Below, one piece after another: positions 22,336 through 58,960 of a DNA stretch of 64,000 bases. The position numbers were made by a program, and so were the translations under genes. The stretch is from Pontederia crassipes (lineage: Eukaryota; Streptophyta; Magnoliopsida; Commelinales; Pontederiaceae). Under the pieces are notes generated by a model. That model ran no database searches and was not told the origin of the DNA. It was given only the letters and a program-made list of their open reading frames with translations. The stretch spans positions 39,759,909-39,823,908 of the forward strand of contig CM060184.1 of the NCBI GenBank assembly GCA_030549335.1, given 5' to 3'. Each line of letters starts with the position of its first letter. The stretch's first letter is position 1.

Positions 22336-23654
22336 TGTAACATTCTCAAAAATTAAATGGAAAGTAAAAAAAAAATAAATAAATAAATAAAAGAAAGCTA
22401 AAGTCACTTAAGACTTATTAAAAAATCCATTAGCCTAACAAACCCCCAAATCCAAATATAAATACTATATGTTAAGCCCTAAACCTTCACTCTCTTTCCT
22501 TTTCTCTCCCAGCCGGCACAGCAACCTTTCCCCCTCACCTACCCCCTCCACTCTCATTTGCTCTCTCTCAGCTCCTCTCTCCATTCACGTCCACAGCACC
22601 CTAGAAGCTCTCCCTCTTTCATTTGTTCTCTCTCTTGTTTACACTCACGACGAGCACAAAAAAAGGAGCAACCCACACTCTCCCTCTCCCACAGTCTCTC
22701 TCCTCTCACACGACCACCAGGAAGAGCTCAAGGAAGATTTGGACAGCTAGTGGAAATAAGAGAAGAAGAAAAAAGAAAGAAGAAAGAAAAGGAAGATCAG
22801 AGAAGGAAGAAGGAGAAGAAGACAAAGAGAAAAAGAAGAAAGAAATTAGGATTTAGGATTAGGGTTTTAACGTAAATCCTTAAGATATGTTTGAAGAAAT
22901 TCTAAATTTAATCACCCCTTAATGATGTATGTTTGTGTGAATTAAGGGATTTTAAGACAAACTAGATCTTATTAATGCATAATTAGGGAAAGTCCATATT
23001 TGTATTAAAATGTTTCTTATTTCATTAATACTATTATTTCATTGTTAATCATGTTTAGTATTAGAATGTTCATTGCTATCCATGTTTAATTCATTATGAT
23101 GTCTTTTATTTTATCATATGAATATGATTAATAATTCTTAATGTTCTTTAGGCAAATCCCTTCATATGTTCAAGATTAAAATAGTAGAAATGTTCATGTT
23201 TAACCTATGTGTTGATTAGTGAATAATGTATGTTTTATGGGATCCAAACCTCCCCAAACCCTCCCTAATGTTGTCTAAATGTGTGGATTAGGGCATGAAG
23301 AATAAACCTCATGTTCTTAAGCTTAAAGGGTTAGGGAATATGCATTAGAGATCCATGTTCATTGTTAATCATGAGTAGAATGTAATGTGCTTCATATTTA
23401 TCATGACTATTGTTCTATTGCTAATCATGTTTAGATGTCGAATATTTAAGGCTTCTTATGTTAGCTCAAAAAGAAATTAGTTCAATGTTCATGTACCTCC
23501 ATGATTGTGATTAACATGTTTGATGTCTTCATGTGAATACACTGTTTACCTCACTGTTAGAATGTTAAGAATGTTTCATATGTTGTGTAGAATCACTTTT
23601 GTGCTCAATATGTGAAAGTATGTAAGATTGTAAACAACATGATGTAAAAATCGT

Positions 23655-24215
23655 GTGCTTGTCGGTTCAGAACGGGCGACCGATAATGTATCGGTCGACC
23701 GTTCTGGAGACATTGTAGTCTTGTACACTGTCCAACGGTTGACCGATTCAATAACGATCGTCTGTTTTAGAAGGGTTATTACATTCTGTGATTAACGGTT
23801 GTCCAAACACCCTGTTTCCATCGATCGAAAGCCATGTAATGATCGACCGATATACCAGCGGTCGTCCGATTTGAATGGTCGTTACATTCTGTGGTTAGCG
23901 GTCGACCAAACGCCCTATTTCGGTCGTCCGATAGCCATGTAATGGTCGACCAATATTCTTAGTGATTGTCCGATTTGATAGCCGTCATATGCTGTGATTA
24001 GCGATCGAACTGAAGCTCAATTTTGATCGTCCGAAAGACCTATAACGTCAATCGATATCCCATCGGTCGTATCAGTTGACACATTCTGTGATTAACGGAC
24101 GAACCGAAGCACAGTTTCTATCATCCGAAAAGATCATAACGGTCGACCGATAACCCGACCGGTCGATCGATACCAGTCCAACGGTCGACCGTCACCCAAA
24201 GCGGTCGTCCGTTCT
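23655..24215. repeat. CG-rich palindrome array in the 5' LTR
   Basis: A roughly 105-bp module repeated about five times, built from GGTCGACCG, GGTCGTCCG and ctgtgattagcggtcg words. Its first part is a 39-bp hairpin (23668-23706) with 18-bp arms (CAGAACGG... / ...CCGTTCTG) differing at one base. The copy in the 3' LTR (34060-34630) is collinear. Confidence 0.85.
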
Positions 24216-24297
24216 GGAAGATTATTGGTTATGATTGAATGTCCATACTTAGTATGATTTGAGATATGTATGACCTCAAATAGGATTAAAACATGCA

Positions 24298-25624
24298 TGA
24301 TGCATGAAAAATCATGTATTAATTTGGATCATTTAATTAACACTTTAAAATGTTTTATGTTTAGAAAAGAAGAGTTTTGATTTGTTTTCATATAATTTCA
24401 TTTAGATTTGATTTCTACCAAAATCTGGAAATTATTCATGGCAACATATGAGAAAACGTCGAAATGAAGACAAGAAAAGACCTAAAATAGCTCAGAAGAC
24501 TGTCACGGCCGTGACAGTTCTGGTCATGGCCGTGACAGAAACATTCAGCACTAAAAAATTTGGCTAAGTTCATGGTCGTGACAGATAATTTCTAGCAAAA
24601 ATTTTGGCTGTATTTTCAGCCTTGATCCGTCACGGCCGTGACGACGGTCTGTTATGCCGTTTTAAAGTCATTTTTATCCATTTTTTGGATATATTTTCTA
24701 TTTCTTTCCTTGGGGGACGAGAAAACCTATAAAAGAAAGTAGAAGAGGGTCTGGAAAAGCATCCCTGGAGCATTATTCTAAAGCCTACAAAGAGGAGAAG
24801 TGCGAGGACAACAGCGAAGCTCTGCCGGAAACTCGAGAGAGGACGCGCTTACCCTATGCTATAGTTTTTGTTTTCTTTTCCCTACATTTTTATTCCAGAT
24901 TTGATGTTATTATTCTCATATTTATTTCTTTATTAGGGTCATCCTAGTTGAACCTTATTTATGTATTGAAGTCTTTCTTAATATTAGTTTAGTTTGAATT
25001 TTTAATAGCATTGCAATTTCATATTTAATGCTTTCATTTGATTCCATGATTTATGATTTGATTGCTATCTGAGAAGAAGTGATTATTTTCATAATAGTTT
25101 CTGGGGATTGATCTTATTTATTGCAAGCCATAATTAAGAAAATCGAAAGAGACCTAATTTGTGTAGTTATTAAGATGACTTGAGAAAGCCCTTAATATTA
25201 ATTCCGATTGAATGCATCTTATGATTTAATTAAGTAAATTAAAAATCGAAAGAATTGATTTATTCTAATTATTCATAAGATAATAGTTAAAGACTGAAAT
25301 ATTGGTTAACTAATTTTGGGAATTCACTTTATTATTGATTCAACTAATTCTAAGTTGAGAAAATTCATTACATTCTAGTGGTGATAATTAGGTGCTCTAA
25401 TCATCAAATCATTATTTCTCCATGTGATCATTTCCTTTATTTTTATTATTTTCTTTTTATTCACCTCTAAAAATTATATATTTTCTTAATTTCTCAATTA
25501 ACAAGGTTAAAATAAAACCTAAGTTATTAATCGTCCTCGTGGGAACGATAACTCTACTCATTCACTTTATTACTTTAGCGATTAGTGCACTTGCTAACGT
25601 TTGCTATCAATTTTACAAGCATCA
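24298..25624 (+). repeat. 5' LTR of the nested element
   Basis: TG...CA bounded. It carries perfect palindromes CTGTCACGGCCGTGACAG (24500-24517) and CGTCACGGCCGTGACG (24628-24643) upstream of a TATA box (TATAAAAG, 24728-24735), so the palindromes sit in U3 close to the promoter. Confidence 0.9.
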
Positions 25625-25630
25625 AGTTTT

Positions 25631-25648
25631 TGGCGCTGTTGCCGGGGA
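25631..25648 (+). promoter_or_regulatory. Primer-binding site (tRNA-Asp type) of the nested element
   Basis: TGGCGCTGTTGCCGGGGA, six bases after the LTR end. It differs by one base from the complement of the plant tRNA-Asp 3' end (TGGCGCCGTTGCCGGGGA), the site used by Athila/Tat-type gypsy elements and their non-autonomous kin. Confidence 0.88.
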
Positions 25649-25798
25649 CGGTGTTTAGTAACTTTTATTTTTATTTTACTTGTTATTTGGGAGCTTTTAT
25701 TTTTTTGTTAAATTCCACGCAGATTTTTATTAATTCACGTACTTTCATATATTCTTTATTTTGTGTGACCAGGAAATATTATCAAAAGACAATTCAGA

Positions 25799-26741
25799 AT
25801 GACAATAAAACCAAAGACTATGGGAGATTACTATTTGGAAGAACGGAGAAAGATGCTTGAGGATCATGAAGCACAAATATCACAACTTGCAAATAACAGT
25901 ATCCCACTCATTCTCATGGTACAAGAAAATTCTACAATTGAAGACAAAATGTTAAAGTTCATCACAATGGTTGAAGAAAAATTTCAACTTCAAGAAAGAG
26001 CCTTTATGAAGTTGTTGGGACAAGTAGAGCAATTGGAGGCTAGGATCCAAATGAAAAATGATGCTCCTCCGTCCACCTACTTAGAGTTAAATTCCAACCT
26101 CGAGGAAAAGTTGTGCCAATTGATTAGAGTCAAAGAAAAGATTCATCCTACAAGATCAACTCATTAGCAATCTACAATCACAGTTGACACAATTGAAGAA
26201 TCAACAACTTGTTATTATTTCTTCTCCTCCTCAATCCCCAAATTTTAATGTTAAGTTTGATATGATGTCGGCAAAATTTCAAACATTAAAGAAGAAATTG
26301 GAGTTGGCTTCTCAGATTGCTTATGCCTCGGAGGATAATATTTTGAATAAATCTGTACCTATTATATGCCCATGTCACTTGCAATATTTTAATCTAGGAA
26401 GAAGACGACCGATGAAGAATTATTACCAGAAGACATGGACTACTCAATGGAGGGTCAATGAGACAAGTGAATATATTATGGAAGATGGACAAGTGCGAAG
26501 AAGAAATCCGCCTTCGGAAACTCCAACAACTATCCCTCCATTACCTCCAAATCGTTCATTGATAGAAGGGAACACACTGCCATCACCTCCGACATCACAA
26601 AATTCCATGCATTGGAAGTCCAAGGACCAAACTCCACAGGAAGATGCAGATAATTCTTATAAAGTGGAGGGACAATACTTTGAACATTACATCAGAGGTA
26701 ATATGGAAAAAGGTCACTTCGAATCCCTTCCAGACACTTGA
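25799..26741 (+). pseudogene. Gag-like coiled-coil region of the nested element
   Basis: Encodes a Lys/Glu/Gln-rich coiled-coil-prone stretch (EERRKMLEDHEAQISQLANN, LLGQVEQLEARIQMKND) and a Pro-rich segment (TTIPPLPPNRSLIEG). No zinc knuckle, protease or polymerase motif is seen. Position after the primer site suggests a gag-derived product. The region looks broken by about one or two changes. Confidence 0.5.
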
Positions 26742-28073
26742 GATAACCGAAGGGTAAAAGTCAAGCTAAAGACTATAACTTAGAACTATACTCTTAAACT
26801 TTTGTCCTTTTAATTTTTAGTTTAGCATTAGTATTAGATTATTTAATGTAGACTAGTTAACATTAAAAAAATGTTTAGATTGAGATTGCTTCAGGAGGAC
26901 ACGGTCACAGCCATGCCTACATCTCTCACGGTCGAGTCTATCTTATTGAGCGTCAAGGCCATGACAATTCTAAAATGTAGAAGTCCAAATCATGCCGGAA
27001 GAAGCCTATGAGCCACCCAAGCAATGCGACCAAGATTCTTTTTAATTGCTCATCAGAACCTAGAAATCATCAGGTTGTCTCTACTCCTTTTGCATTTTAT
27101 CATTATTATTTCGTAGTTTACATGTGCACGAGCCTAACACTGGGGCAGTGTCAGGTTCAAGCTTGGAGGAAGGACTTAGTCTTGTTTCATTTGCATGGCA
27201 TGTCTATTTTCAACATTTTGAATCTACCATCTTATTTTGTTTGACATGCATCTAATTCTGAATTTTAAAAAAAAAAATAAGTTTATGTCATCTCATTTCT
27301 CCTTGTTTATTATTTTATTATCTTTAAGCTTATTTTCAGAACATCGCTTAATCTATGAAATTCAATCATTGTTTCTTTTTATCGGGTATCACTAGAGTAC
27401 TGGGATTTGGATTGAGTTTGTTACTAAGTAGAAGGACTAGCTTTTAAATGATGAATTTCTCTATTATTTACTATGATCTTAGTCCTGATTATAATTGCAT
27501 CTCTATTGAAAGCATTAAGTCTTTTTGGAGATTATAATTATGCTATATAATTTTAATACAAAAAATGAAAATGAAAAAAGAGCTAGTTGAGCTCCAACAG
27601 TTAAGTGAAAAGTATAAAGTATCTTCTGGAACTTTGGTGTGTCCGGGTGATTAGATCCGTAGGGGATTCTTGCCTGGCGACCTAAGGGCATCTGCTCTAG
27701 GATTCGTCGATCGAAAGCCCGTTACATGGACCACTTTGTGCAATATGGAGGATTACTAAATTCTTAAGTGCAAATGAAAAAAAAATATTAATGCTGAAAT
27801 GTGAAATGATAATAGTATGAAAATAAGCTCCTTAAAGACTTGTGGTTCAATATTGATACTCTTATAAGATTGACTAATACTATTTGTAGATATGCAGGAA
27901 AGACATGTTTGAAAGCTAAGAATTTTGCAAGGTTGTGTATTGGTTGAGAAAAGATACTCTAGTGATGGTCGTGTAAAACAACAATGGGAGGAAAGTATTG
28001 GTTTTGTGATGGAGCCATGTGCCTTATCTGAAATTTGCTTGAGGACAAGCAAAATATTAAGCTTGGGAGTATT
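26742..28073 (+). other. Non-coding internal region of the nested element
   Basis: About 1.3 kb without recognisable coding sequence. It contains further CACGGTC / GCCATGAC words (26898-26975) like those in the LTRs. It ends in gaggacaagcaaaatattaa gcttgggagtatt, the polypurine-type tract directly before the 3' LTR at 28074. Confidence 0.6.
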
Positions 28074-29442
28074 TGATGCATGGAAAATCATGTATTAGTT
28101 TGGGTTATTTGATTAACACTTTAGAATGTTTTTATGTTTAGAAAAGAAGAGTTTTGATTTGTTTTCATATAATTTTATTTAGATTTGATTTCTACCTAAA
28201 TCTGAAAATTGTTCATGGCAGGATATGAGAAAACGTCGAAATGAAGGTAAGAAAAGACCTAAAACAGCTCAGAAGACTGTTACGGCCGTGGCAGTTCTGG
28301 TCATGGCCGTGACAGAAACATTCAGCACTCAGAAATTTGACTAAGTTACTGTCACGGTCGTGACAGTTTCTGTCATGGTCATGACAGATAATTTCTAGCA
28401 AAAAATTTGGCTGTATTTTCAGCTTTGACAGCCTTCTGTCATGGCCATGATGAATCCTTTCATGACCGTGATGGCGGTCTGTTAGGCCATTTTAAAGCCA
28501 TTTTTATTCACTTTTTGGGTATATTTTCTTGGGGGACGAGAAAACCTATAAAAGAAAGTAGAAGAGAGCTTAGAAAAGCATCCCTGGAGCGTTATTCTAA
28601 AGCCTACAAAGAGGAGAAGTGCAAGGACAACAATGAAGCTCTGCCGAAAACTCGAGAGAGGACGCGCTTAACCTATGCTAGAGTTTTTGTTTTCTTTTTC
28701 CTACATTTTTATTCCAGATTTGATGTTATTATTCTCAGATTTATTTCTTTATTAGGGTCATCCTAGTTGAATTCTATTTATGTATTGAAGTCTTTCTTGA
28801 TATTAGTTTAGTTTGATTCTTTAATAGCATTGCAATTTCATATTTAATGCTTTCCTTTGATTCCATTATTTATGATTTGATTGCTATCTGAGAAGAAGTG
28901 ATTATTTTCATAATAGTTTCTGGGGATTGATCTTATTTATTGCATGCCACAATTAGGAAAATCGAAAGAGACCTAATTTGTGAAGTTATTAAGGTGACTT
29001 GAGAAAGTCCTTAATATTAATTCCGATTGAATGCATCTTATGATTTAATTAGGTAAATTAAAAATTGAAAGGATTGATTTATTCTAATTATTCATAAGAT
29101 AGTAGTTAAAGTCTGAAATATTGGTTAACTAATTTTGGGAATTCACTGTGTTATTGATTCAACTAATTCTAAGTTGAAAAAATTTATTACATTCTAGTGA
29201 TGATAATTAGGTGTTCTAATCATCAAATCATTATTTCTCCAGGTGATCATTTTCTTTATTTTTATTATTTTCTTTTTATTCACCTCTGAAAATCATATAT
29301 TTTCTAATTTCTCAATTAACAAGGTTAAAATAAAATCTAAGTTATTAACCGTCCTTGTGGGAACGATAATTCTACTCATTCACTTTATTACTTGAGCGAC
29401 TAGTGCACTTGCTAACGTTTGCTATCAATTTTACACGCATCA
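28074..29442 (+). repeat. 3' LTR of the nested element
   Basis: Starts TGATGCATGG, ends ACGCATCA. Palindromes are more numerous here: several TGTCA(C/T)GG(C/T)C(G/A)TGACAG variants between 28280 and 28480. TATA box TATAAAAG at 28547-28554. Confidence 0.9.
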
Positions 29443-30631
29443 ATGCAACATGTATTGAATGATTATATGTATTGATGAAAGCAAGTAAAAGACGGATTGA
29501 TGTGAAGGTGACTTGTTGTAACCGAGAAGGGGAAATGAGTTTCACCCCTAAGTGGTGGCATTTCCTGGGGCAACGAGTTCCACCCTTGAGTGTGGAATTT
29601 TCATAAATTGAGGCGAGCTCCACCCTTGAGTGTGGCGTCTCTGTTGGGCCTATGCGGAATCAGGAGACGAGTTCCTCCCTTGAGTGTGGTGTCTTTATTG
29701 GCTACCCGCGAATCCAATCTTGGCCTAGCTAGCCATTCTCCCACGAACTCAACATGGTCTTTCCAATCAATAAGATAAGAAAGTATCTAAATAAAGATGA
29801 AAGACGAAAAGATGAATGACTTGGGACATAAAGTTAAAGATGTTAAAGAAGTATGATGAAGTATGCACCTATGAAGATGCAATATGAATGTCCACTTATC
29901 ACATCATATCATGGCATGAACAAAGATGACAAAGTAAAGTAAGATAAGATCATGATATGCATTATCATAATGATAAGTTATGATATGTTTGACCTAAAGA
30001 TTATGATGTTACATGTTATCTTATCTTGCCATGATGTTATGCTCACATGCCATATATTATGTATAAGTAGCTCATAGCATGCGTATGAATTATATTCCAT
30101 AATGATGATATGCATATGCCATGATATGTAGAGATTATATTATAAGATCATAGCATGCATGGACCTCAACATACTCTAACGGGAGAAATTATCTACACCC
30201 CATGAATCCGTGCAAGTGTGGATGAGGCTTAGGTTCGGCGGTAAGGGCCTCTTGACGAAGACATTGCACATGGGCGAGTTAGGCTACGGTCCAAGTTGTT
30301 TTACTATTATTATGTCATTTTGATGAATTCTTGTAAGAGTGGTTTATGTATGGCTTATGGGCCTTATGGAGTTATGTATTTTACTTGAACTCATTATGTT
30401 GTAGGAACTCTTTGTTTGGCATACATTAGAGCCTATTAGGTCCATGAACTAGTATGTTATTTTGGGTTTGTTTTATTTATTTATGAAGTCTTTCGTTGTT
30501 TATGCAATTATTGTTTCATGTTTATTATATTATGTTTCTACTGCAAAGTTTTATGAAATTAGGTCATGTCAAAGTAATGTCATTTAGGGTTCGACGACTA
30601 AATTGGGACCAAATTTTGGGGGCATTATAGA

Positions 30632-30645
30632 TGGTATCAGAGCCA
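30632..30645 (+). promoter_or_regulatory. Primer-binding site (initiator tRNA-Met type) of the gag-only gypsy element
   Basis: TGGTATCAGAGCCA, two bases after the 5' LTR end, complementary to the 3' end of plant initiator tRNA-Met. Confidence 0.9.
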
Positions 30646-30964: not shown

Positions 30965-31885
30965 ATGGATGTGAATTATTCAACGAACGCAGGCATGACT
31001 CAAGTTATGGAATGTGATGAAGGCTCATGCCAAGATTCTTTGATGATGTTTTTAAGCTTCAATCCTCCTATGTTCAATGGTATTGAAGATCCGGAGGAAG
31101 TCGAGGCATGGTTGGATGCCATCATGAATATCTTCAGAATGATGAAATGTTCGAAAGAAAGTAAACTGGCTTGTGCCACTCATAGTTTGACAGGAAAAGC
31201 AAAGCAATTGTGGGATGTTATCCTTAGGTCTAAATATGCCAATGAAAAAAATACGATATGGTGGAAATTCGTGATGGATTTCAAGGATCAATACTTTCTA
31301 CAAAGTATGAGTGAACAAAGACAAGAGGAGTTTCTTAAACTCCAACAAGGTGATATGCCAGTGGACGACTACGCGGTTAAGTACTTTCAACTCGAAAAGT
31401 ATTGCACCTTGGTCAAGACGGAAAGAATGAGAGGGAATCATTTTGTGAAGGGACTTAAACCCGAATTGAAGGCTAGAATGATGTGTGAAGCTCCTGAGAC
31501 AATGAGCGAAGCTCTTGAACTAGTTGTAGAACTAGAATAGAAGCTCAAGGATGAAGTTGTGAAGTATAATGGAAAAACATCAAAGAATATGACCAAGCAA
31601 AAAAAAAGGAAGGGTCCAAAGAAATCACCTTACCATTCTCCGAAGAAGATGGAACGAGCATATTACACATGTCATCATTGTGGAAGACGTCACCTCGATG
31701 AATGTCGTTTAAAGGCGGGAACTTGCTTGAAGTGTGGCAAGGCTGGCCATTATGCGAAGAATTGCTCGGAGAAGCTAGATGTCAACTTTCCAAAAGTGTT
31801 GGGACAAGTTCACGCCATGCAAGTCGAAGAAGCTCACCAAGTTCTGGATACGATTCAAGGTAATTGTCGCTTAATGTTTAACTGA
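30965..31885 (+). pseudogene. Gag of the gag-only gypsy element
   Basis: Retrotransposon gag domain: FNGIEDPEEVEAWLDAIMNI, KLACATHSLTGKAKQLWDVI and FVKGLKPELKARM. A basic linker (KQKKRKGPKKSPYH) and two zinc knuckles, CHHCGRRHLDEC and CLKCGKAGHYAKNC, follow. This is the chromovirus/Tekay-like gypsy gag layout. It looks lightly broken. No protease, reverse transcriptase, RNase H or integrase motif follows before the 3' LTR. Confidence 0.88.
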
Positions 31886-32707: not shown

Positions 32708-35700
32708 TGTAACATTCTAAAAAATTAAATGGAAAGTAAAATAAAAAGAAAAATAAATAAATAAATAAATAAAAGAAAGTTAAAATCACTTAAGACCCAT
32801 TAGAAAGCCCATTACCTAACAAACTCTCAAATCCAAATATAAATACTATATGTTAAGCCCTAAACCCTCACTCTCTTTCATTTTCTCTCCCAGCCGACAC
32901 AGCAACCTTTCCCCCCTCACCTACCCCCTCCACTCTCGTTTGCTCTCTTTCAGCTCCTCTCTCATTCACAAGCAACAAGGAGGCCATCACTCCTCTCTCC
33001 ACTCACGTCCACAGCACCCTAGAAGCTCTCCCTCTCTCATTTGTTCTCTCTTGTTTACACTCACGACCAGCACAAAAAAGGGAGCAACCCACAGTCTCTC
33101 TCCTCTCACACGAACACCAGGAAGAGAAACAAGAGAAGAAAAAAGAAAGAAGAAAGAAAAGGATGAGAAGGAAAGAAGAAGGAGAAGAAGAAAAAGAGAA
33201 AAAGAAGAAAGAAATTAGGATTTAGGATTAGGGTTTTAACGTAAACTCTTAAGGTATGTTTGAGGAGATCCTAAATCTAATCACCCCTTAATGATGTGTG
33301 TTTACGTGAATTAAGGGATTTTAAGACGAAACTAGATCTTATTAATGCATAATTAGGGAAAGTCCATATTTGCATTAAGATGCTTCTTATTTCATTAATA
33401 CTATGATTTCATTGCTAATCATGTTTAGTATTAGAATATTCATTGCTATCCATGTTTAATTCATTATGATGTCTTTTATTTGTTCATATGAATATGATTA
33501 GTAATTTTTAATGTTCTTTAGGCAAATCCTTTTATTTGTTCATTGCTATCCATGTTTAATTCATTATGATGTTTGTTCATACGATTAAGATAGTAGAAAT
33601 GTTCATGTTTAACCTATGTGTTGATTAACGAATAATGTATGTTTGAGGGGATCCAAACCTCCCAAAATCCTCCCTAATGTTGTTTGAATGTGTGGATTAG
33701 GGCATGAAGAGCAAACCCCATGTTCTTAAGCTTAAAGGATTAGGGAATATGCATTAGAGATTCATGTTCATTGTTAATCATGAGTAGAATGTAATGTGCT
33801 TCATATTTATCATGACTATTGTTCTATTGCTAATCATGTTTAGATGTCGAATATTTAAGGCTTCTTATGTTAGCTAAAAAAAAAATTAGTTCAATGTTCA
33901 TGTACCTCCATGATTGTGATTAACATGTTTGATGTCCTCATGTGAATACACTGTTTACTTCACTGTTAGAATATTAAGAATGTTTCATATGTTGTGTGGA
34001 ATCACTTTTTGCTTAATATGTGAAAGTATGTAAGATTGTAAACAAGATGATGTAAAAATCGTGTCTGTCGGTCCAGAACGGGCGACCGATAATGTATCGA
34101 TCGACTGTTCTATAGACCATTGTAGTCTTGTACACTGTCCAACGATCGACCGATTCAATAACGATCGTCTATTTTGGAAGGGTCGTTACATTCTGTGATT
34201 AGCAGTCGACCAAACACCTTATTTCGATCGTCCAAAAGCCATGTAACGGTCGACAGATATACCAGCGGTCGTCCGATTTGAATGGTCATTACATTCTGTG
34301 ATTAGCGATCAATCAAACGGCCTATTTTGGTTGTCCGATAGCCATATAACGGTCGATCGATATTCCCAGCGGTCGTCCAACTTGATAGCCATCACATTCT
34401 GTGATTAGCGATCGAATCGTAGCTCAGTTTCGGTCATCCGAAAGACCTATAACGTCAATCGATATCCTAGTGGTCGTTCGTTTCAGAGAGTCGACACATT
34501 CTGTGATTAGCGAACGAACCGAAGCACAATTTTGATCGTCCGAAAAGACCATAACGGTCGACCGATAACCCGATCGATCGACCGATACCAGTCCAGCGGT
34601 CGACTGTCACCCAAAATGATCGTCTGTTCTGGAAGATGATTGGTTATGATTGAATGTCTATACTTAGTATGATTTGAGGTATGTATGACCTCAAATATGA
34701 TTAAAACATGCATCATGTATTGAATGATTGTATGTATTGTTTAAAACAAGTAAAAGACGGATTGACGTGAAGGTGACTTATTGTAATCGAGGAGGAGAAA
34801 TGATTTCCACCCTAAGTGGTGGCATTTCCCGGGGAAACGAGTTCCACCCATGAGTGTGGCATTTTCATAAGTTGAGGTGAGTTTCACCCTTGAGTGTGGC
34901 GTCTCCTATGCGAAACCAAGAGGCGAGTTCCACCCTTGAGTGTGGCGTCTCTATTGGCTACCCGCGAACCCAATCTTGCCCTACCTAGCCATTCTCCCAC
35001 GAACTCAACATGGTCTTCCCAATCAACAAGATAAGAAAGTATCTAAGTAAAATTGAAAGATGAAAAGATGAATGATGAATGACTTAGGACATAAAGTTAA
35101 AGATGTTAAAGAAGTATGATGAAGTATGCACCTATGAGGATGCAATATGAATGTCCACTTATCACATCATATAATGACATGAATAAAGATGACAAAGTAA
35201 AGTAAGATAAGACCATGATATGCATTATCATAATGATAAGTTATGATATGCTTGACCTAAAGATTATGATGTTACATGTTATCTTATCTTGCCATGATGA
35301 TATGCTCACATGTCATATACTATGCATAAGTAGCTCATAGCATACATATGAATTATATTCCATGATGAGGATATGCATATGCCATGACATGTAGAGATTA
35401 TGTTATAAGGTCATAGCATGCATGGACCTCAACATACTCTAATGGGAGAAATCCCCCTGCACCCCACGAATCGATGCATGTATGGATGAGGCTTAAGTTT
35501 GGCGGTGAGGGCCTCTTGACGAAGACATTGCACATGGACGAGTCGGGCTCCGGCCCAAGTTGTTTTACTATTATTATGTCATTTTGATGAACTCTTGTAA
35601 GAGTGATTTATGTATGGCTTATGGGCCTTGTGAACTCACGTATTTTACTTGAACTCATTATGTTATAGGAATCCTTTGTTAGGCGTACGTTAAAGCCTAT

Positions 35701-35893
35701 TAGGCCCATGGGCCAGTATGTTATCTTGGGTTTGTTTTATTTATCTATGAAGTCTTCCGCCGTTTATGAAATTCTTGTTTCATGTTTATTATATTATGTT
35801 TCTGCTGTAAAGTTTTATGAAATTATATCATGTCAAAGTAACGCCACCTATAGTTTGACAACTAAATTAGATCCGAATTTTGGAAGCGTTACA
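32708..35893 (+). repeat. 3' LTR of the gag-only gypsy element
   Basis: 3186 bp, collinear with the 5' LTR throughout, and uninterrupted: CT-rich leader at 32865-33240, palindrome array at 34060-34630, ccacccttgagtgtgg repeats at 34845-34950. The bases before it (taaggggtatat) form the polypurine-type tract. Its last 186 bp are open in frame with the following glutaredoxin fragment. Confidence 0.9.
34060..34630. repeat. CG-rich palindrome array in the 3' LTR
   Basis: Collinear with 23655-24215. Many of the CG positions that differ between the copies read as CA or TG (for example cggtcgaccg to cgatcgact), as expected from deamination of methylated cytosine. Confidence 0.85.
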
Positions 35894-49789: not shown

Positions 49790-52700
49790 AGTTTATATAT
49801 ATAATGTGTTATAACTTTTTTTTTGTTTTTTTCCTTGAAAAGATCAAGATAACCTTCATATTTAAACAAAATTCTATTTTTTTAAAAAAATAACTTGTAA
49901 GGTCACTACAATTGATTTTTTTATTAATTTTCTATTTGTACATAAATTTATTAACTTCATTATAGGAATTAATAAGACTTTAACTGAATTTACGTATTTT
50001 TTGTATCTTAATAATCTAAAAACATATTGCATTTGAAATTATTGCAATTCTTTATTATGAATTTTTATTCACTAATTGTACGTAAACTCTACGAATTTTT
50101 ATTTTTATGTAAATTTACTAATTTCATTATATGAATTAATAGGACTCTAACTTATAAGCATTGATGTTAATCTCTAATTGTTTAATTTTATTTGAATTCA
50201 ATAATAAAAAAATTAACTAATTGAATACTATAAAAAGAATGACAATAAGTTGAGGATAATAATGTTAGCATCATCGGGATGATGCATTCTAAATTGTTTA
50301 TTAAATGTATTTTCCAATGTTATCTTCTTGGTGATGATGTTTTTTTGAATTCCCTGTGACAAAAAATAATAACAAGCCTACAATCTTTGACATAAAATAG
50401 AGTCCTTCCTCATATAATGACAATCAAATAACATGTGCCCATTGTTGCAATCGACGATTTTCTTGCACCTACTTCATTTGGTGTGTTACCACTTTTTTGT
50501 TTTTTTTTCTTCAAAATACCAAAATGTCTTTCATATTTAAAGAAATTCTACTTTTTTCTAAAAAACTTGTGAGGTCACTAAAATTGATTATTTATTTATA
50601 TATATATTTATTAATTTCATTATGTGAATTAATAGAACTCTAATTTATAAGCATTGATGTTAATCTCCATCTGTTTAATTTTATTTGGGTTCAATAATCA
50701 ATTGCTAACACGAAGATTTTTGCTTTAAATTAACTAATTGAATATTATAAAAGGAATAACATTAAGTTGGGAATAATAATGTTAAGATTATCAGGATGAC
50801 GCATTCTAAATTATTTATTAATTGTATTTTCCAATGTTATCTTCTTAGCATTGATGTTTTTTTTTTAATCCTCTATAACAAAAATAGCAACAAGCCAAGA
50901 ATCTCTCATTTTGACGTAAAATAGAGTTCTTCACCATATAATGTCAATATTTGTTGCAATCGAGTCTTCTTGCACTTATTTTATGTGGCGTGCTATCATT
51001 TTTTTTTCTTCCATCAAAAGACCAAGATGCCCTTCATATTTAAAGAAATTCTAATTTTTTCTTATAAAAACTTGTGAGATCACTACAATTGATTTTTTAT
51101 TCAATTTTTATTTGTATATAAATTTATTAACTTAATTTTATGAATTAATAGGACTCTAATTTACAAGAGTTGATGTTAATATCTAGATTTTTAATTTTAT
51201 TCGTGTTCAATAATCTATTGGTAACACGAAGATTTCTGTCTTAAATTAACTAATTGAATACTATAAAAAGAATGACATTAAGTTGAGGATAATAATGTTA
51301 GCATCATCAGGATGATGCATTCTAAATTGTTTATTAAATGTATTTTCCAATGTTATCTTCTTGGTGATGATGTTTTTTTTGAATTCCCTGTAACAAAAAA
51401 CAATAACAAGCCTACAATCTCTGGCATAAAATAGAGTCCTTCCTCATATAATGTCACGATTTTCTTGCACCTACTTCATTTGGTGTGTTATCACTTTTTT
51501 TGTTTTTATTCAAAATACCAAAATGTCTTTCATATTTAAAGAAATTCTACTTTTTTCTAAAAAACTTGTGAGGTCACTACAATTGATTTTTTTATTTTTA
51601 TATATATTTATTAATTTCATTATGTGAATTAATAGAACTTTAATTTATAAGCATTGATGTTAATCTCCATCTGTTTAATTTTATTTGGGTTCGATAATCA
51701 ATTGCTAACACGAAGATTTTTGCTTTAAATTAATTAATTGAATATTATAAAAGGAATAACATTAATTGGGAATAATAATGTTAAGATTATCGGGATGACG
51801 CATTCTAAATTATTTATTAATTGTATTGTCCAATGTTATCTTCTTGGCGTTGATGTTTTTTTTTAATCCTCTGTAACAAAAGCAGCAAGCCAAGAATATC
51901 TCATTTTGGCATAAAATAAAGTTCTTCGTCATATAATACCAATCAAATAACATGAGACCATTGTTGCAATTGAGTCTTCTTGCACCTACTTTATATGACG
52001 TGCTATCACTTTTTTTTCCTTCAAAATACCAAGATGTCATTCATATTTAAAGAAATTCTAATTTTTTTTCTTAAAAAACTTGTGAGATCACTAGAATTTA
52101 TTTTTTATTCAATTTTTATTTGTATATAAATTTATTAAGTTCATTAGATGAATTAATAGGACTCTAATACAAGCATTGATGTTAATCTCTAACTTTTTAA
52201 TTTTATTTGTATTCAATAATCAATTGGTAACACGAAAATTTCTATCTTAGATTAACTAATTGAATAATATAAAAATAATAACATTAAGTTGAGGATAATA
52301 ATGTTATGATCATCGGTATAACACATTTTAAATTGTTTATTAATTGTATTTTCCAATATCCTTTTCTTGGTGATTATGTTTTTTTTAATCCCCTATAACA
52401 AAAAACAATAACAAGCCTAGAATCTCTCAGTTGGCGTAAAATAGAGTCCTTCATCATATAATATCAATCAAATAATATAAGCCCATTATTGTAATCAACG
52501 TTCTTCTTGCACCTACTTCATATGGTGTGTTACCACTTTTTTATTTTTTTTTCTTTCAAATTACCAAGATACTTTTCATATTTAAAGAAATTCTATTTTT
52601 TTTTCTAAAAAACTTGTGAGGTCACTACAATTGATTTTTTATTTATATATAAATTTATTAATTTCATTATATGAATTAATAGAACTCTAATTTATAAACA

Positions 52701-53560
52701 TTAATGTTAATTTCCAACTGTTTAATTTTATTTGGGTTCAATAATCAGTTGCTAACTCGAAGATTTCTATCTTAAATTAAATAATTGAATACTATAAAAA
52801 GAATGTCATTAAGTTGGGGATAATAATGTTAAGATTGATGATGTTTTTTTAATCCATTGTAACAATAACAATAACAAGCCAAGAATATCTCATTTTGACG
52901 TAAAATAGAGTTCTTTGCCATAAATGCCAATCAAATAACATGAGACCATTGTTGCAATCGAGTCTTTTTGCACCTACTTTTTATGTCGTGCTATCATTTT
53001 TTTTTTGTTTTTTTCCCTTCAAAAGACCAAGATGTCATTTATATTTAAAGAAATTCTATTTTTTTAAAAAAAACTTGTGAGATAATACAATTGATTTTTT
53101 ATTAATTTTTTATCTTTATATAAATTTATTAACTTCATTATATGAATTAATATCATTTTAATTTACAAGAATCGATGTTAATCTCTAGCTATTTATTTTT
53201 CTTTTTTTGTTCAATAATCAGTTGACAATATGAAGATTTGTGTTTTATACTAACTAATTGAATAGTACAAAAAGAATAATATTAAGTTGATGAACTATAT
53301 CTTTCAATGTCCTTTGCTTCACAATGATGTTTTTTTTTAATACCTTGTAAGAAAAACAATAACAAGCCTAGAATCTCTTAGGTTGGCGTAAAATAGACTC
53401 CGTCGCTATATAATGTCAATCAAATAACATGAGCATTGTTGCAATCGATGATCTTCTTGCACCTACTTTATATGGCGTATTATCACTTTTCTCCCTTCAA
53501 AAAACCATGATGCCCTTCATATTTAATCAAATTGTAAATTCTTTCTAAAAAAACTTAAGA
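49790..53560. repeat. Satellite-like array, ~505-bp units in A/B dimers
   Basis: The landmark (attgttgcaatcga or variant, then ttcttgcacctactt) recurs at about 50442, 50951, 51455, 51962, 52489, 52945 and 53436. Units also share caaaatgtctttcatattta, aacttgtgaggtcactacaa and aataatgttaagat. Units alternate between two types: A has caataacaagcctacaatct and catttggtgtgtta, B has agcaacaagccaagaatctc and gcgtgctatca. AT-rich and non-coding. The first unit (from 49790) is a variant shared with the later block at 56540-58960. Confidence 0.88.
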
Positions 53561-53599: not shown

Positions 53600-54323
53600 C
53601 CATCGCGTCACTGACTCTTTTGCCGCATTGGGGCCTCAAATTAGGGAGAAACTCGAATTTGACAATACCACGGATAGAACAATCCCAAGTATGCTTCTTC
53701 ATCATCACTTGAGGAAGTTTTAAAGTCATTTTCTTCATCTTCAATTCCATCTCAAATAGTTTGAAGAGCTTTCTTTTTTTTCTTCAAATTTTTTTCCTAC
53801 TTTTCTTTCTTAGCTAGATTTGGACACTCATTCTTATAGTGACCAACATTTTTCCATTCAAAGCAAGTTATTTAATTTTTGCTTGTTGATGATTTTCTTT
53901 TGGAGATGCCACTCTTTTTTTTTTCTTGGCAAGCTTAAGATATTTGTCAAGCTTCTTGACATACAAAGCTAACTTCTTTTTATCTAATTCTTCACTTGTT
54001 TCATTTTCATTCATCATTGCTTTCAAAGCCAAAATCTTCTTTTTGAATATGCTTGTTTCATCTTACTTGACTCCAATCTCATAGATCAAGAAAGATTCTA
54101 TGAGATCATCAAAATCTAGCTTGTTCAAGTTCTTCTCTTCAATCACGGTTCTCTTTATGTGCCACTTGGAAGAAATGGACCTAAGAAATTTCTTCACTTT
54201 TTGAGAGTTAGTCCGTGGTTCACCCAAGGAGGTTAAGTCATTCACAATGTCATTAAAATGTGCAATCGTTTCATTTATAGATTCGTTTTCATACATCCTA
54301 AAATAGTCATATTGATGATTCAA
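53600..54323 (-). pseudogene. Copia gag remnant (UBN2 type)
   Basis: The minus-strand block YFRMYENESINETIAHFNDI, NDLTSLGEPRTNSQKVKKFL and LDFDDLIESFLIYE matches the UBN2 gag domain of plant copia elements. Downstream on the minus strand are a zinc-knuckle-like CFEW(K)...HYKNECP area (about 53830-53860) and an acidic tail. The region is broken in several places. Confidence 0.75.
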
Positions 54324-54726
54324 AATATTAAGTCTAGACTCCTTAACCTTATTGGTACCTTCATGTATAATGATAAGTTTTCTTCATATTTCATAACCAC
54401 TTTGACAATTAGAAGCACGATTAAATTTCATTGCATCTAATGAAAAAAAAAGATGATTTTTTGCTTTTCAATCTAATTTCACAACTAATCTTTCATCTTC
54501 CGTGTATTTCATAGGTGACCTTCCATGCAAATCAAAATCATTTTCAATTATATCTCAAATATCAATATCAATAGAGCATACATAAGCTTGTATTCTAATT
54601 TTCTAAAAGGCAAAATTTGAAGCATTAAAAAGTGGAGGATGATTCGTGGATTAATCTTCACCCAAAGTAAAACCACTTGATGTCATAGATCAAAAGATTT
54701 TTAAATCTTTAAAATAAGAACAACTT

Positions 54727-54739
54727 GGCTCTGATACCA
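54727..54739 (-). promoter_or_regulatory. Primer-binding site of the copia fragment
   Basis: Minus strand TGGTATCAGAGCC, two bases from the LTR end at 54742; complementary to the initiator tRNA-Met 3' end. Confidence 0.85.
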
Positions 54740-54741
54740 AT

Positions 54742-56145
54742 TGTAGGATCGAAAACACTAAGAGAGAATGAATTGATGTATAAAAAATCTAACTGAAAAA
54801 GCCGTCAAAGTTGATTTTTAGAAAATGTGATCGCAAGCAAGTAAAAGGTAAGTAAGAAGAGCAAGAGAAGAGAAAGACGTAATATGTTAACGAGGTTCGG
54901 CTCAATTCCTTGGCCTATGTCTCCGCTTTGACTTTCTGACCTTGAGACCGTCGGAGATTCACTAGCCTTCTCTTTTCTTGTAGGAAGAGAATAACCCTTT
55001 TCTACACCACAATGCCTTCTTCTTCTTCGTTCAAGAGGTAAGACCCACCTCTTCTTACAAGAAGCTCTCAAAACTATCTAAACAAGAACACAAGAATTCC
55101 CTCTAATTCTCTCTTCTTACAAAGGATGCTCACACTTAGAGACTAAAAGAGGAAAGGGATGATTTGCAAAATTTAGTTCAATAAAAAATGTTTTGGACTT
55201 GAAGAAAGCTCTAGAGTGATTTGTCTTGCATGGATAACCTTCCTTCAATCTTTTGAGTCCTTTTTATAGGCTTCTCTTAAAAATATGACCGTTGTAAATC
55301 AATTTGAAAAGTTTTGTCGTCCGTTTTACACAGTAATTAGTCGTTATGTCTTTTGTCGCATATTTAGCGATCACCAATTATAGTATTGGGCGTCCATTTA
55401 ATATAAAATAATAGCCGTTATTTTTGTCTTTTCTGTATAATTTTTCGTTGATCGTAGTTCATAGAAGGATTATAGCCGTTTATTTAATTTTTGCTCCATA
55501 ATGATCGTCCGAAAGGGAATCAGTCATCCGATTTAGAATTCTCGTACTCTCTGTAATCTACGGTCGTTCATGTAACGACTTCGATCGTCTGATTTCCATA
55601 CTTTTTGTTTTTTCTACCCAGAACGGTCGACCGTTAATGTTTTGACCGTCCGATTTAGAAGTGTCGGTGCTCTCTATAATCTGTGGTCATTCATGCGCTA
55701 GCTTCGATCGTCCGATTTATATATTTTTGACCTTTACTGTCCAGAACGGTCGACCGTTAGAGTTTCGGTCATCCATTTAAGAAATATTCGTGCTCTCTAT
55801 AATCTGCGATCGTTCCATCTATCATTTCGGACGTCCGTTATGTACTTCGATCTTTCATGTAATACATATAACGGTCGACCGAAAATAAATCGGTCGACCG
55901 ATTTAGGAAATCATTTCTTTTTGGAATTAGCGATCGTTCTAGCTTCGTTTTAGTCGTCCATGCCTCCTTCCTTATTACGCCACTTTATGAATCAAAGAGA
56001 TAAAGGACAAAAACATAAACAAAGTTTAAAAAGAGAAAAAAACCTAGGATGTTTTGCAGGACGAAAATACCTCGAAGAAAAACATGTGAAATAGGAAGGA
56101 AAAATTTTGAAAAACTACCTCGTCGTTGAAGAATAGCCGTCAACA
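54742..56145 (-). repeat. 5' LTR of the copia fragment, with palindrome modules
   Basis: 1404 bp. On the minus strand it runs from TGTTGACGGC (56145) to GATCCTACA (54742). A TATA box (minus TATAAAAA, plus 55261-55268) has the GGTCGACCG / GATCGTCCGATTT modules upstream of it at 55500-55975, that is in U3. The bases just beyond the right end (attattttgcaagacgaaaa) resemble bases inside the LTR (gttttgcaggacgaaaatac, about 56050-56070). Confidence 0.8.
55495..55975. repeat. CG-rich palindrome modules in the copia LTR
   Basis: About three tandem modules of ~125 bp. Each has tctataatctgcggtcgtt, cttcgatcgtccgattt, cagaacggtcgaccgtta and a gaccgtccgatttaga-like word in that order. The same words in a closely similar order form the array in the gypsy LTRs at 23655 and 34060. 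Confidence 0.82.
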
Positions 56146-56535
56146 CCATATTATTTTGCAAGACGAAAATAGGACCGTCATCTAATTAAATAGATCTAGG
56201 GTTATTAAAGGGTATATTTGGAAAAGGAAATTATTCAAGATTGCCCCACAAGTGATAATGTAGAATGCCACACCCCCCATAGGTAATATACATTGTCACT
56301 TCTTAGATGATTTGGATTGCTTGAGTAATGGAGATTACTCATTACTTGTCACAAGTGAACATGATAATATGGTGGACTCAGATAATTTAATACAATATTA
56401 TCTGTTAATTTACAAAGATTACCTCTAAATAAATGCCCCTTAGAAAATGTCTCTCTTCTCCAAAAAAAAAGAATCTGAATATTAAAGCAGATGTGAATAA
56501 TGAATGATACATTATTAGATGTAAAATGTCAAAAT
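56146..56535. other. Unassigned DNA between the copia LTR and the array
   Basis: Includes ggagattactcattacttg and other words not seen elsewhere in the window; no gene or element boundary recognised. Confidence 0.4.
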
Positions 56536-56539
56536 CAAT

Positions 56540-58960
56540 ATACAAAATTAGACCAAGATGCCCTTCATATTTAAAGAAATTATAAATTTAAAAAAAAATT
56601 GTAAGGTCACTACAATTGATTTTTTATTAATTTTCTATTTGTACATAAATTTATTAACTTAATTATAGGAATTAATAAGACTTTAACTGAATTTACATAT
56701 TTTTTTAATATTGATAATTTGAAAATAGATTGCATTTGAAATTATTGCAATTCTTTATTATGAATTTTTATTAACTAATTATTTATGTTATTTCTTTTTT
56801 ATGTATTTATTAATATATGTTTATGTAATTTAAAAAACAATAGTTATTAAATTAATATTGTACATAAACTCTACGTATTTACGTATCGAGTTTATGATAT
56901 GAGTTCAATCTTCCTAAAACTAACTTAGGTAAAAATTCGAACTTCATAATCATGAGCCTAGAAAGAAGAATCCCATCAACTAGACCCTAAAAACTCAATC
57001 TTGATCAGAATTACAAACCAACCAAATTTTTTAAAAAAGGAATCAACAATCTAACCAACAAACCGTCAATTTTCTTCCAAAATCCAGGTCAATTAGCAAG
57101 GCAAAAGTCACAATTTTGCATGTAAATTCAATGTTCACACCTAAGAATTCAATATTAAACATTCGAAACATAACAAGAAAAAACCAAAGAGTAATATTGT
57201 AACATGGTTCTCTGTACGTCTTTGCTGTCTTTCTTGTTGTATTGACACTATTTTTTTTTTGTTTTTTTCCCTTAAAAAGTACAAGATGTCCTTCATATTT
57301 AAAGAAATTCTAATTTTTTTAAAAAAAATAAACTTTTGACTTCACTATAATTGATATTTTATTCATTTTATATTTGTATATAAATTTATTAACTATTATT
57401 ATATGAATTAATAAGACTTTAATTGACTTTACATATTTTTTTAATCTTGACCATTTTAAAAAGATTGAATTTGAAAGCATTACAAATCTTTATTATGAGT
57501 TTTTATTCATTAATTATTCATGTTATTTTTTTATTTATTTATTAATATATTTTTATGCAATTTAGAAAATCATAGTTATTAAAATAATATTGTACATAAA
57601 CTCAACGTACTTACGTATCGAGAGTTTATAATATGAGTTCATCCTCCTAAAACGAACTTAGGTAGAAATTCGAACTTGACAATAAGGATTTAGAAATCCT
57701 CACTCCTCCCACCATTCGGAAGCATGTGCGAACCAGTTGAGAACCTTCTTCCACCATTCGAAAAATATCAACATTTCCACCACGCAGGGAAAACGAATTT
57801 AAGTAGACCAAGTTGACTCCGGACACAACAATCCCAACAAATAACTAGCCTAGAATCTCCCAGTTTGGCATAAAATAAAGTCTTTCATATTATGCCAATT
57901 ATTGCTAGGGATGGACGAATTTTCTTACATCTTCTGTTGTCATGTATTGGAGAAACTCATTCTAGGTTGACTCGAATGCATTTTCAATAACGCGTCAGAG
58001 AAATGTCTCTTTTATTCAAAAAAAAATTCTCAACATTAAAACATATGGTCAATAAGCAATGATCCACAGTTTGATATAAAATGTCAAAACCAATAAATGA
58101 AATTAGATCAAGAAGCTCTTCATATTTAAAGAAATTCTATTTTAAAAAAAACTTGTGAGGTCACTACAATTGATTTTTTATTCATTTTCTATTTGTATAT
58201 GAATTTATTAAATTCATTATATGAATTAATAAGACTTTAATTGAATTTACATATTTTTTAAATCTTGATAATATAAAAAAGATAGCATTTGAAATTGATG
58301 AAAAAATTCGAGAATAAGGAGAGAAGATCGCAGAGAGATTGCAGAAAAATAGAGGAGACGCACGAATTTACTCAGATTCACACTTGAGATGAGGGCTACG
58401 TCTTGTAAAGAGGTTCTACTATATCGTTTAGGTTTACAGCCGCCACACAGATTATACCAGAAATTAAACTATTAATAGCCTCTCCAAACCGGGTTTAAAA
58501 CCCAAACAAACAGAGAAAAAACCTAATCCGAACCACACGGACCGGCTAAACAAAAGCCCAAAATCCGTCTAGGTTTCGGGGGCGCTGCCCCTGAACCCCC
58601 GCCTGCTCACGTGGGGGGCGGGGCCTCTCGAACCCCCCCCTTTCGTTCGTACGCCAACAGCACTGCTAATTGGGTAATACTCAAATTCCCCTAAGCTCAC
58701 GTGGGCGAACCCGGTGTGAGAAACAAGGGGTCCTGAAGTATTCACCAACTCTAACAGAAATTACTGCAATTCTTTATTATGAATTTTAATTCACTATTTA
58801 TTCATATTATTTCTTTTTTTATTTATTAATATATTTTTATGCAATTTAGAAAATAATAATTATTAAATTAATATTGTACATAAACTCTATGTATTTGCAT
58901 AATTTATGATATGAGTCCACCTCCTAAAATTAATTTAGGAAGAAACTCGAAGTTGAAAAC
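56540..58960. repeat. Array continuation: three diverged long-form units
   Basis: Units at about 56540-56950, 57240-57690 and 58080-58960 (the last split by a solo LTR). All share the catatttaaagaaatt and gtcactacaattgatttttt core with the main array, but continue with attgcaattctttattatga, aatattgtacataaactcta and acgtatttacgtatcgag instead of the A/B text. The unit at 49790-50100 is of this form too. Confidence 0.8.
58296..58756 (-). mobile_element. Solo LTR (copia-like) with perfect target duplication
   Basis: 461 bp, ends TGATGAAAAAATTCG and CCAACTCTAACA (minus strand TGTTAGAGTTGG ... TTTTTTCATCA), flanked by exact GAAAT at 58291-58295 and 58757-58761. It lies inside a satellite unit whose text resumes immediately (gcatttgaaatt / attactgcaattc). 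GC-rich centre (cgggggcgctgcccctgaac). The usual origin is recombination between the two LTRs of a full element. Confidence 0.93.

Follow-up and report, generated by a model that had tools for sequence, protein, structure and literature searches.

The window, by which we mean the whole 64-kb stretch of DNA that was analyzed, contains two LTR retrotransposons whose LTRs carry CG-rich palindromic modules. One is a truncated copia copy on the minus strand. Its LTR (54742-56145) has TG...CA ends and an adjoining PBS at 54727-54741, in agreement with the initial annotation of this interval as a copia LTR, and it matches the LTRs of relatives in the same genome. No second LTR was found for this element in the window, where self-comparison gave it no repeat partner, and its coding content consists only of a gag fragment (54066-54383, minus strand; PF14223, E 2.3e-13). 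The PBS is intact; the C run near the LTR end is not. The palindrome module occupies 55495-55975 and reads on the plus strand, opposite to LTR transcription, in units of ~123-125 bp, with exact copies of CGGTCGACCG at 55624, 55747, 55872, and 55891. A TATA-like box (55259-55271, minus strand; a sequence match) lies downstream of it. Elsewhere, the window contains a tandem array at 50093-53556 with a spacing of ~484-525 bp, and shorter related pieces at 56442-58956.

The gypsy element lies on the plus strand, with LTRs of 3.2 kb that we delimited by self-comparison and by their ends. The 5' LTR spans 22336-30629, where it is split by a nested element and followed by a PBS at 30632-30644, and the 3' LTR spans 32708-35893. 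Between them is a gag gene (30965-31537, plus strand; PF03732, E 1.6e-13; also PF19259). Each LTR contains one palindrome module on the plus strand, in the sense orientation: 23655-24215 in the 5' copy, with five unit matches between 23782 and 24220, and 34060-34630 in the 3' copy, with four between 34189 and 34586. These two intervals had been annotated as the gypsy LTRs themselves, and they are in fact modules within the much longer LTRs. A TATA-like TATAAATA is kept in both copies, at 22457 and 32838, ~1.2 kb upstream of the module. Because of this position, the gypsy module is probably transcribed, although the TATA assignments in both elements were made by sequence only. The long LTRs hint that the family may belong to a plant chromovirus lineage; the chromodomain had no match at E 10 in the two 3'-end gypsy ORFs searched, both of which are broken. 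The nested LTR element (24298-29442, plus strand; LTR pair 24298-25625/28074-29443, 89.8%) is flanked by ATGCA on both sides and has CG-rich palindromes of its own, of a different kind: CACGGCCGTG occurs at 24504 and at 24631, and a TATA-like box follows at 24726. In its ends and its PBS-like word, this element may resemble Athila.

The copia and gypsy modules had been proposed to share a set of words. We found that CGGTCGACCG occurs exactly eight times in the window and that all eight occurrences fall within the three modules, as do all 22 copies with at most one mismatch. The ratio of observed to expected CpG is 2.01, 1.73, and 1.76 in the three modules versus 0.78 in the window as a whole. 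We then aligned the copia module with the two gypsy modules by the Smith-Waterman method, with 500 dinucleotide shuffles per comparison as the control. In the orientation given above, one alignment scored 43, where its shuffles reached at most 35, and the second scored 55, where they reached at most 33, so that both beat 500 of 500 shuffles. On the other strand, one pair scored 42, again above the best of its shuffles at 36, whereas the second pair scored only 28, a value reached by 16 of 500 shuffles; since 42 exceeds its shuffle maximum, the palindromes of that copia-gypsy pair match on both strands. A profile of gypsy units also matches the copia module at 55798-55912 (E 3e-7). Both the restriction of CGGTCGACCG near-copies to the modules and the alignments thus uphold the proposal of common words, and of the individual words it had listed, near-variants are present and TTAGCGGTCG occurs once, although exact AATCTGCGGTCG is absent from the window.

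To place these modules among their relatives, we searched the 1.13-Gb assembly that contains the window. The pattern AACGGTCGACCGTT has 864 sites in the genome versus 2 for the reversed pattern, and CATTCTGTGATTAGCGGWCG has 768 + 667 versus none. We examined a non-random sample of 34 loci (L005-L038), made up of the 20 contig-1 site clusters that were listed, four chosen stretches, and ten 3-kb loci, and assigned each to a class by those parts of its LTR flanks that lie beyond the module. At 32 of the 34 loci, the flanks were those of a single class, comprising 10 of gypsy type and 22 of copia type (three of the latter, L034-L036, re-sample the element of L008), and no locus had both. The other two, L013 and L015, matched neither set of flanks and have a neighborhood that looks copia-like. 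Relatives bear out the annotated placement of the two elements in different superfamilies, to which the window itself contributes PF14223 for copia and PF03732 for gypsy. At L008, RVT_2 (E 4e-73), rve, and gag_pre-integrs lie between module-carrying LTRs (LTR pair, 94%); at L025, RVT_1, Integrase_H2C2, and SH3_Tf2-1, in broken frames, likewise lie between module-carrying LTRs, and L026 has gag and SH3_Tf2-1 in broken frames. As L008 and L025 have paired LTRs and pol genes of their own, we reject misassignment of the LTRs. The two LTRs of L025 differ at 1 of 800 aligned positions at ~800-1600, a stretch that covers the module, versus 92 of 904 elsewhere; this stretch is likely a gene-conversion tract, or an assembly effect.

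The copia family has the hallmarks of a Sirevirus, and we therefore call the window copy, as a member of that family, Sirevirus-like. L008 has three exact AGGGGGAG PPT octamers before its 3' LTR, with the LTR-adjoining copy differing by one base and an AT/TG junction, and at least one exact octamer is present on some strand in nine of ten loci checked (none in L014), with its position checked only in part. The poly-C integrase signal near the LTR end and the conserved PBS are present in L008 and L019. In L008, as in the window copia LTR, the cluster of palindromes precedes the TATA box. Additional palindrome units, in opposite orientations, occur after pol (RVT_2) in L008 (6959-7164) and L010 (4046-4252), and at 7775-7991 of L014 in a similar place. 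Excerpts of Bousios et al. 2010 (PMC2829016) describe such an arrangement, with RM boxes made of CGG-CCG palindromes upstream of the TATA box and after pol, for 13 Sireviruses from both monocots and eudicots. In the one from Vitis, the box is exactly CGGTCGACCG. The post-pol units of L008, L010, and L014 resemble the linker boxes of env-bearing Sireviruses in the same excerpts. Because this layout of the repeated-motif region has already been described there, the copia half of our finding is of a known kind and not new.

The evidence that the modules of the two families are homologous comes from their tandem unit. In both families, this unit is ~103-125 bp long and has four words in one order, TCTGTGATTAGCGG, TTTCGGTCGTCC, TAACGGTCGACCGATA, and CGGTCGTCC, with order and spacing kept. 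The words are 9-16 bases long, one of the four is non-palindromic, and the linker words differ between the classes. Comparing 52 gypsy with 34 Sirevirus units (one antisense gypsy unit, GYP_L037_1449, was dropped), we found the same majority base at 64 of 88 comparable columns, where a slid control averaged 21.7 and never exceeded 37, and column conservation correlates between the classes (Spearman 0.48). A profile built from eight gypsy units scored 15.3-51.4 bits in all 20 Sirevirus modules to which it was applied, from 16 loci and the window (L005, L009, L013, L015, L021, and the second LTR of L019 were omitted), while 25 shuffles of each module reached at most 7.2 bits and reversed copies 0.0. 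When whole loci were scanned with the gypsy-unit profile at E 1e-3, the copia-type loci L005 and L007 gave no match. Across the genome, TCTGTGATTAGCGG followed by TTTCGGTCGTCC with a free gap of 10-25 has 478 matches versus none for the reversed control, and among the 100 matches listed the span is 41-43 bases, where 39-54 was allowed.

How the two sets of units relate to each other bears on their history. Mean unit identity is 0.653 across classes (best, 0.787) versus 0.736 and 0.716 within them. In a unit tree, from which we left out units of fewer than 78 profile positions and L034-L036 (which repeat the element of L008), one side of a split (support, 0.87) holds 52 of 53 gypsy units and no Sirevirus unit. 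The classes separate and gypsy units are not nested within Sirevirus units, so the tree gives no direction of transfer; the event was probably old. The likeness is confined to the module, as pieces of flank from outside the palindromes had no significant match within the LTR of the other family. Of the flank profiles run against the other class, SIRE_D had no match in gypsy loci at E 0.1, and SIRE_U and GYP_down had one weak match each (E 0.037 and E 0.05). GYP_up had two matches (E 9e-14 and 2e-10), in L022 and L005 and outside their Sirevirus LTRs, which we read as separate gypsy fragments, and the 72 matches of SIRE_M arise because that piece retains palindromic words. On the flank profiles, we reject a common LTR ancestry beyond the module. 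By its sequence, the module is a homologous, putatively cis-regulatory cassette present in two superfamilies, and its sharing is most simply explained by a single lineage of arrays. The initial annotation had offered either a site array acquired twice or a transfer of LTR sequence between families. Transfer is the better of these, and two independent acquisitions are unsupported, since common descent is what the collinearity and fixed spacing of the unit indicate.

The orientation and position of the cassette differ between the families in just the way that had been suggested. Relative to transcription, all 33 assigned Sirevirus units are antisense and 58 of 59 gypsy units are sense; units that share an array or an LTR pair are not independent of each other in this count, which dropped units of fewer than 60 positions, L001-L004, L034-L036, and eight units with no LTR flank nearby. 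Likewise, the module lies upstream of the TATA-like box in the copia LTR and downstream of it in the gypsy LTR.

We also asked how the modules fold and how their CpG sites decay. On the sense strand, folding exceeds that of shuffled sequence in six gypsy modules (z -2.8 to -8.5) and in six Sirevirus modules (z -2.2 to -6.0), with 15 shuffles each; with 100 shuffles, the window modules gave z -2.15 (copia) and -7.26 (gypsy). In five of six LTR pairs, CpG transitions in the module reach 0.124-0.260 versus 0.032-0.088 at other positions, as expected of methylated DNA (L008, for example, has 11 of 70 CpG positions in the module changed versus 9 of 281 others), and an unmethylated CpG island is therefore unsupported. 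The sixth pair, L025, has no CpG transitions in its module. This decay does not single out the module because the rest of the LTR decays alike. Words with at least two CpGs that are common to both classes in the sampled loci comprise fourteen 21-mers and four 24-mers, with a single locus, L006, as the gypsy source of eight of the fourteen and of all four 24-mers. The palindromes of maize Sirevirus LTRs were reportedly identified as small-RNA hotspots by Bousios et al. in 2016. As to a known plant binding site corresponding to CGGTCGACCG, 45 papers contain one of three strings, and among the 15 of these that were listed none was on plant elements by its title. A host-factor or methylation role for the module is possible.

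Taken together, we favor the reading, with a probability of roughly 65%, that one homologous cassette passed from a Sirevirus into a gypsy LTR, where it sits inverted, and that its words have the same job in both families. The cassette would have been a tandem array with a ~100-bp unit of CG-rich palindromic words, located in the repeated-motif region upstream of the TATA box in a Sirevirus-like copia lineage. It would then have entered, inverted, a gypsy lineage with long LTRs, landing within the LTR downstream of the TATA box, in what is expected to be the transcribed leader. The likeliest route would be an antisense piece of Sirevirus LTR stranded in a gypsy LTR by nested insertion and then deletion, after which the chimeric gypsy LTR would have multiplied. 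A Sirevirus source is favored because RM boxes are described in 13 Sireviruses, one of them with CGGTCGACCG (PMC2829016, in excerpt). Since both families have kept the words, these probably do the same job in each; they may be bound by a host factor that supports expression. The cost could be hairpin-forming transcripts that feed small-RNA silencing, such that the array would double as a silencing target. A wider reading is more tentative, and we would sooner doubt it than rely on it: the inverted cassette may have become fixed in a successful gypsy family, the same host factor may activate both families, and small RNAs may cross-silence them via the shared 21-24-nt words.

Alternatively, the homologous unit may have moved from gypsy to Sirevirus, or both families may have received it from elsewhere, for instance from a satellite or some other element. 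We consider this unlikely, although the unit tree is neutral as to direction and gypsy copies are evidently many, given that the fetched CATTCTGTGATTAGCGGWCG sites lie in gypsy loci for seven of eight distinct elements sampled. Against it, Sireviruses of other plants are known to have CGG-CCG boxes that agree in core and position, and the boxes after pol in L008 and L010 are likewise as in env-bearing Sireviruses (both from excerpts of PMC2829016). In addition, none of the 34 loci fell outside the two classes by its flanks except L013 and L015, with their copia-like neighborhood. Less probable still is that both families evolved their arrays independently, with one host protein complex dictating word order and spacing. 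The conservation of words and not of linkers would fit this scenario, and the different palindromes upstream of the TATA-like box in the nested third element imply that such arrays may arise repeatedly. As the linker words differ, a strict spacing rule imposed by a host complex could mimic homology, which is one point against our preferred explanation. Convergence would nevertheless have to produce a single order of four words, each 9-16 bases long and one non-palindromic, with a spacing that differs by at most two bases among the matches listed. Chance likeness of CG-rich words, or a misassigned LTR, is very improbable: in the window, one of the two comparisons does give a palindrome score on either strand, but we reject chance similarity on the shuffled, reversed, and slid controls, and the paired LTRs and own pol genes of L008 and L025 speak against misassignment.

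If one cassette has indeed served both families, it bears on whether cis-regulatory DNA passes between LTR superfamilies and stays, and on cross-silencing between unrelated elements. Excerpts of PMC10760457 treat it as an unsettled question why Sireviruses keep CG-rich palindromes that resemble silencing targets. A second, unrelated family that has these words in reversed orientation, on the opposite side of its TATA box, amounts to a natural experiment, in which the words kept by both families are candidate functional sites and the linkers are not.

The closest known system is the Sirevirus RM box. As excerpted, PMC2829016 reports clustered CGG-CCG palindromes upstream of the LTR TATA box, extra post-pol boxes, CGGTCGACCG itself in Vitis, and high CpG, all of which are shared with our modules. 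Those excerpts compare copia elements only, among which the box is Sirevirus-specific, whereas here a homologous array is also present in a gypsy LTR, where its orientation is reversed and it follows the TATA box. Among the matches listed from the open-licence literature, we came across no account of a gypsy LTR with an array of Sirevirus boxes. According to excerpts of PMC10760457, an excess of small RNAs maps to the Sirevirus palindromes of maize; the palindrome-rich LTR region and its strong RNA folding resemble those described here, although the palindrome word differs. Maize Ty3 elements generally have no obvious structure peak in the same excerpts, in contrast to the strongly folding gypsy modules of this study. 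The excerpted text (Martin et al. 2023, PMC10760457) also notes that one Sirevirus palindrome recurs in maize Helitrons, and thus in another element class as well, but that is a single palindrome, whereas ours is a multi-word tandem unit in the LTRs of another LTR superfamily. The VANC targets of Arabidopsis VANDAL elements (Hosaka et al. 2017, PMC5735166, in excerpt) are likewise tandem arrays of short words in mobile elements, bound there by a sequence-specific protein; VANDALs are DNA transposons that encode the binding protein, and the likeness is one of way of working only. Within the literature searched, the module is a known kind of region in a new kind of carrier, a gypsy LTR.
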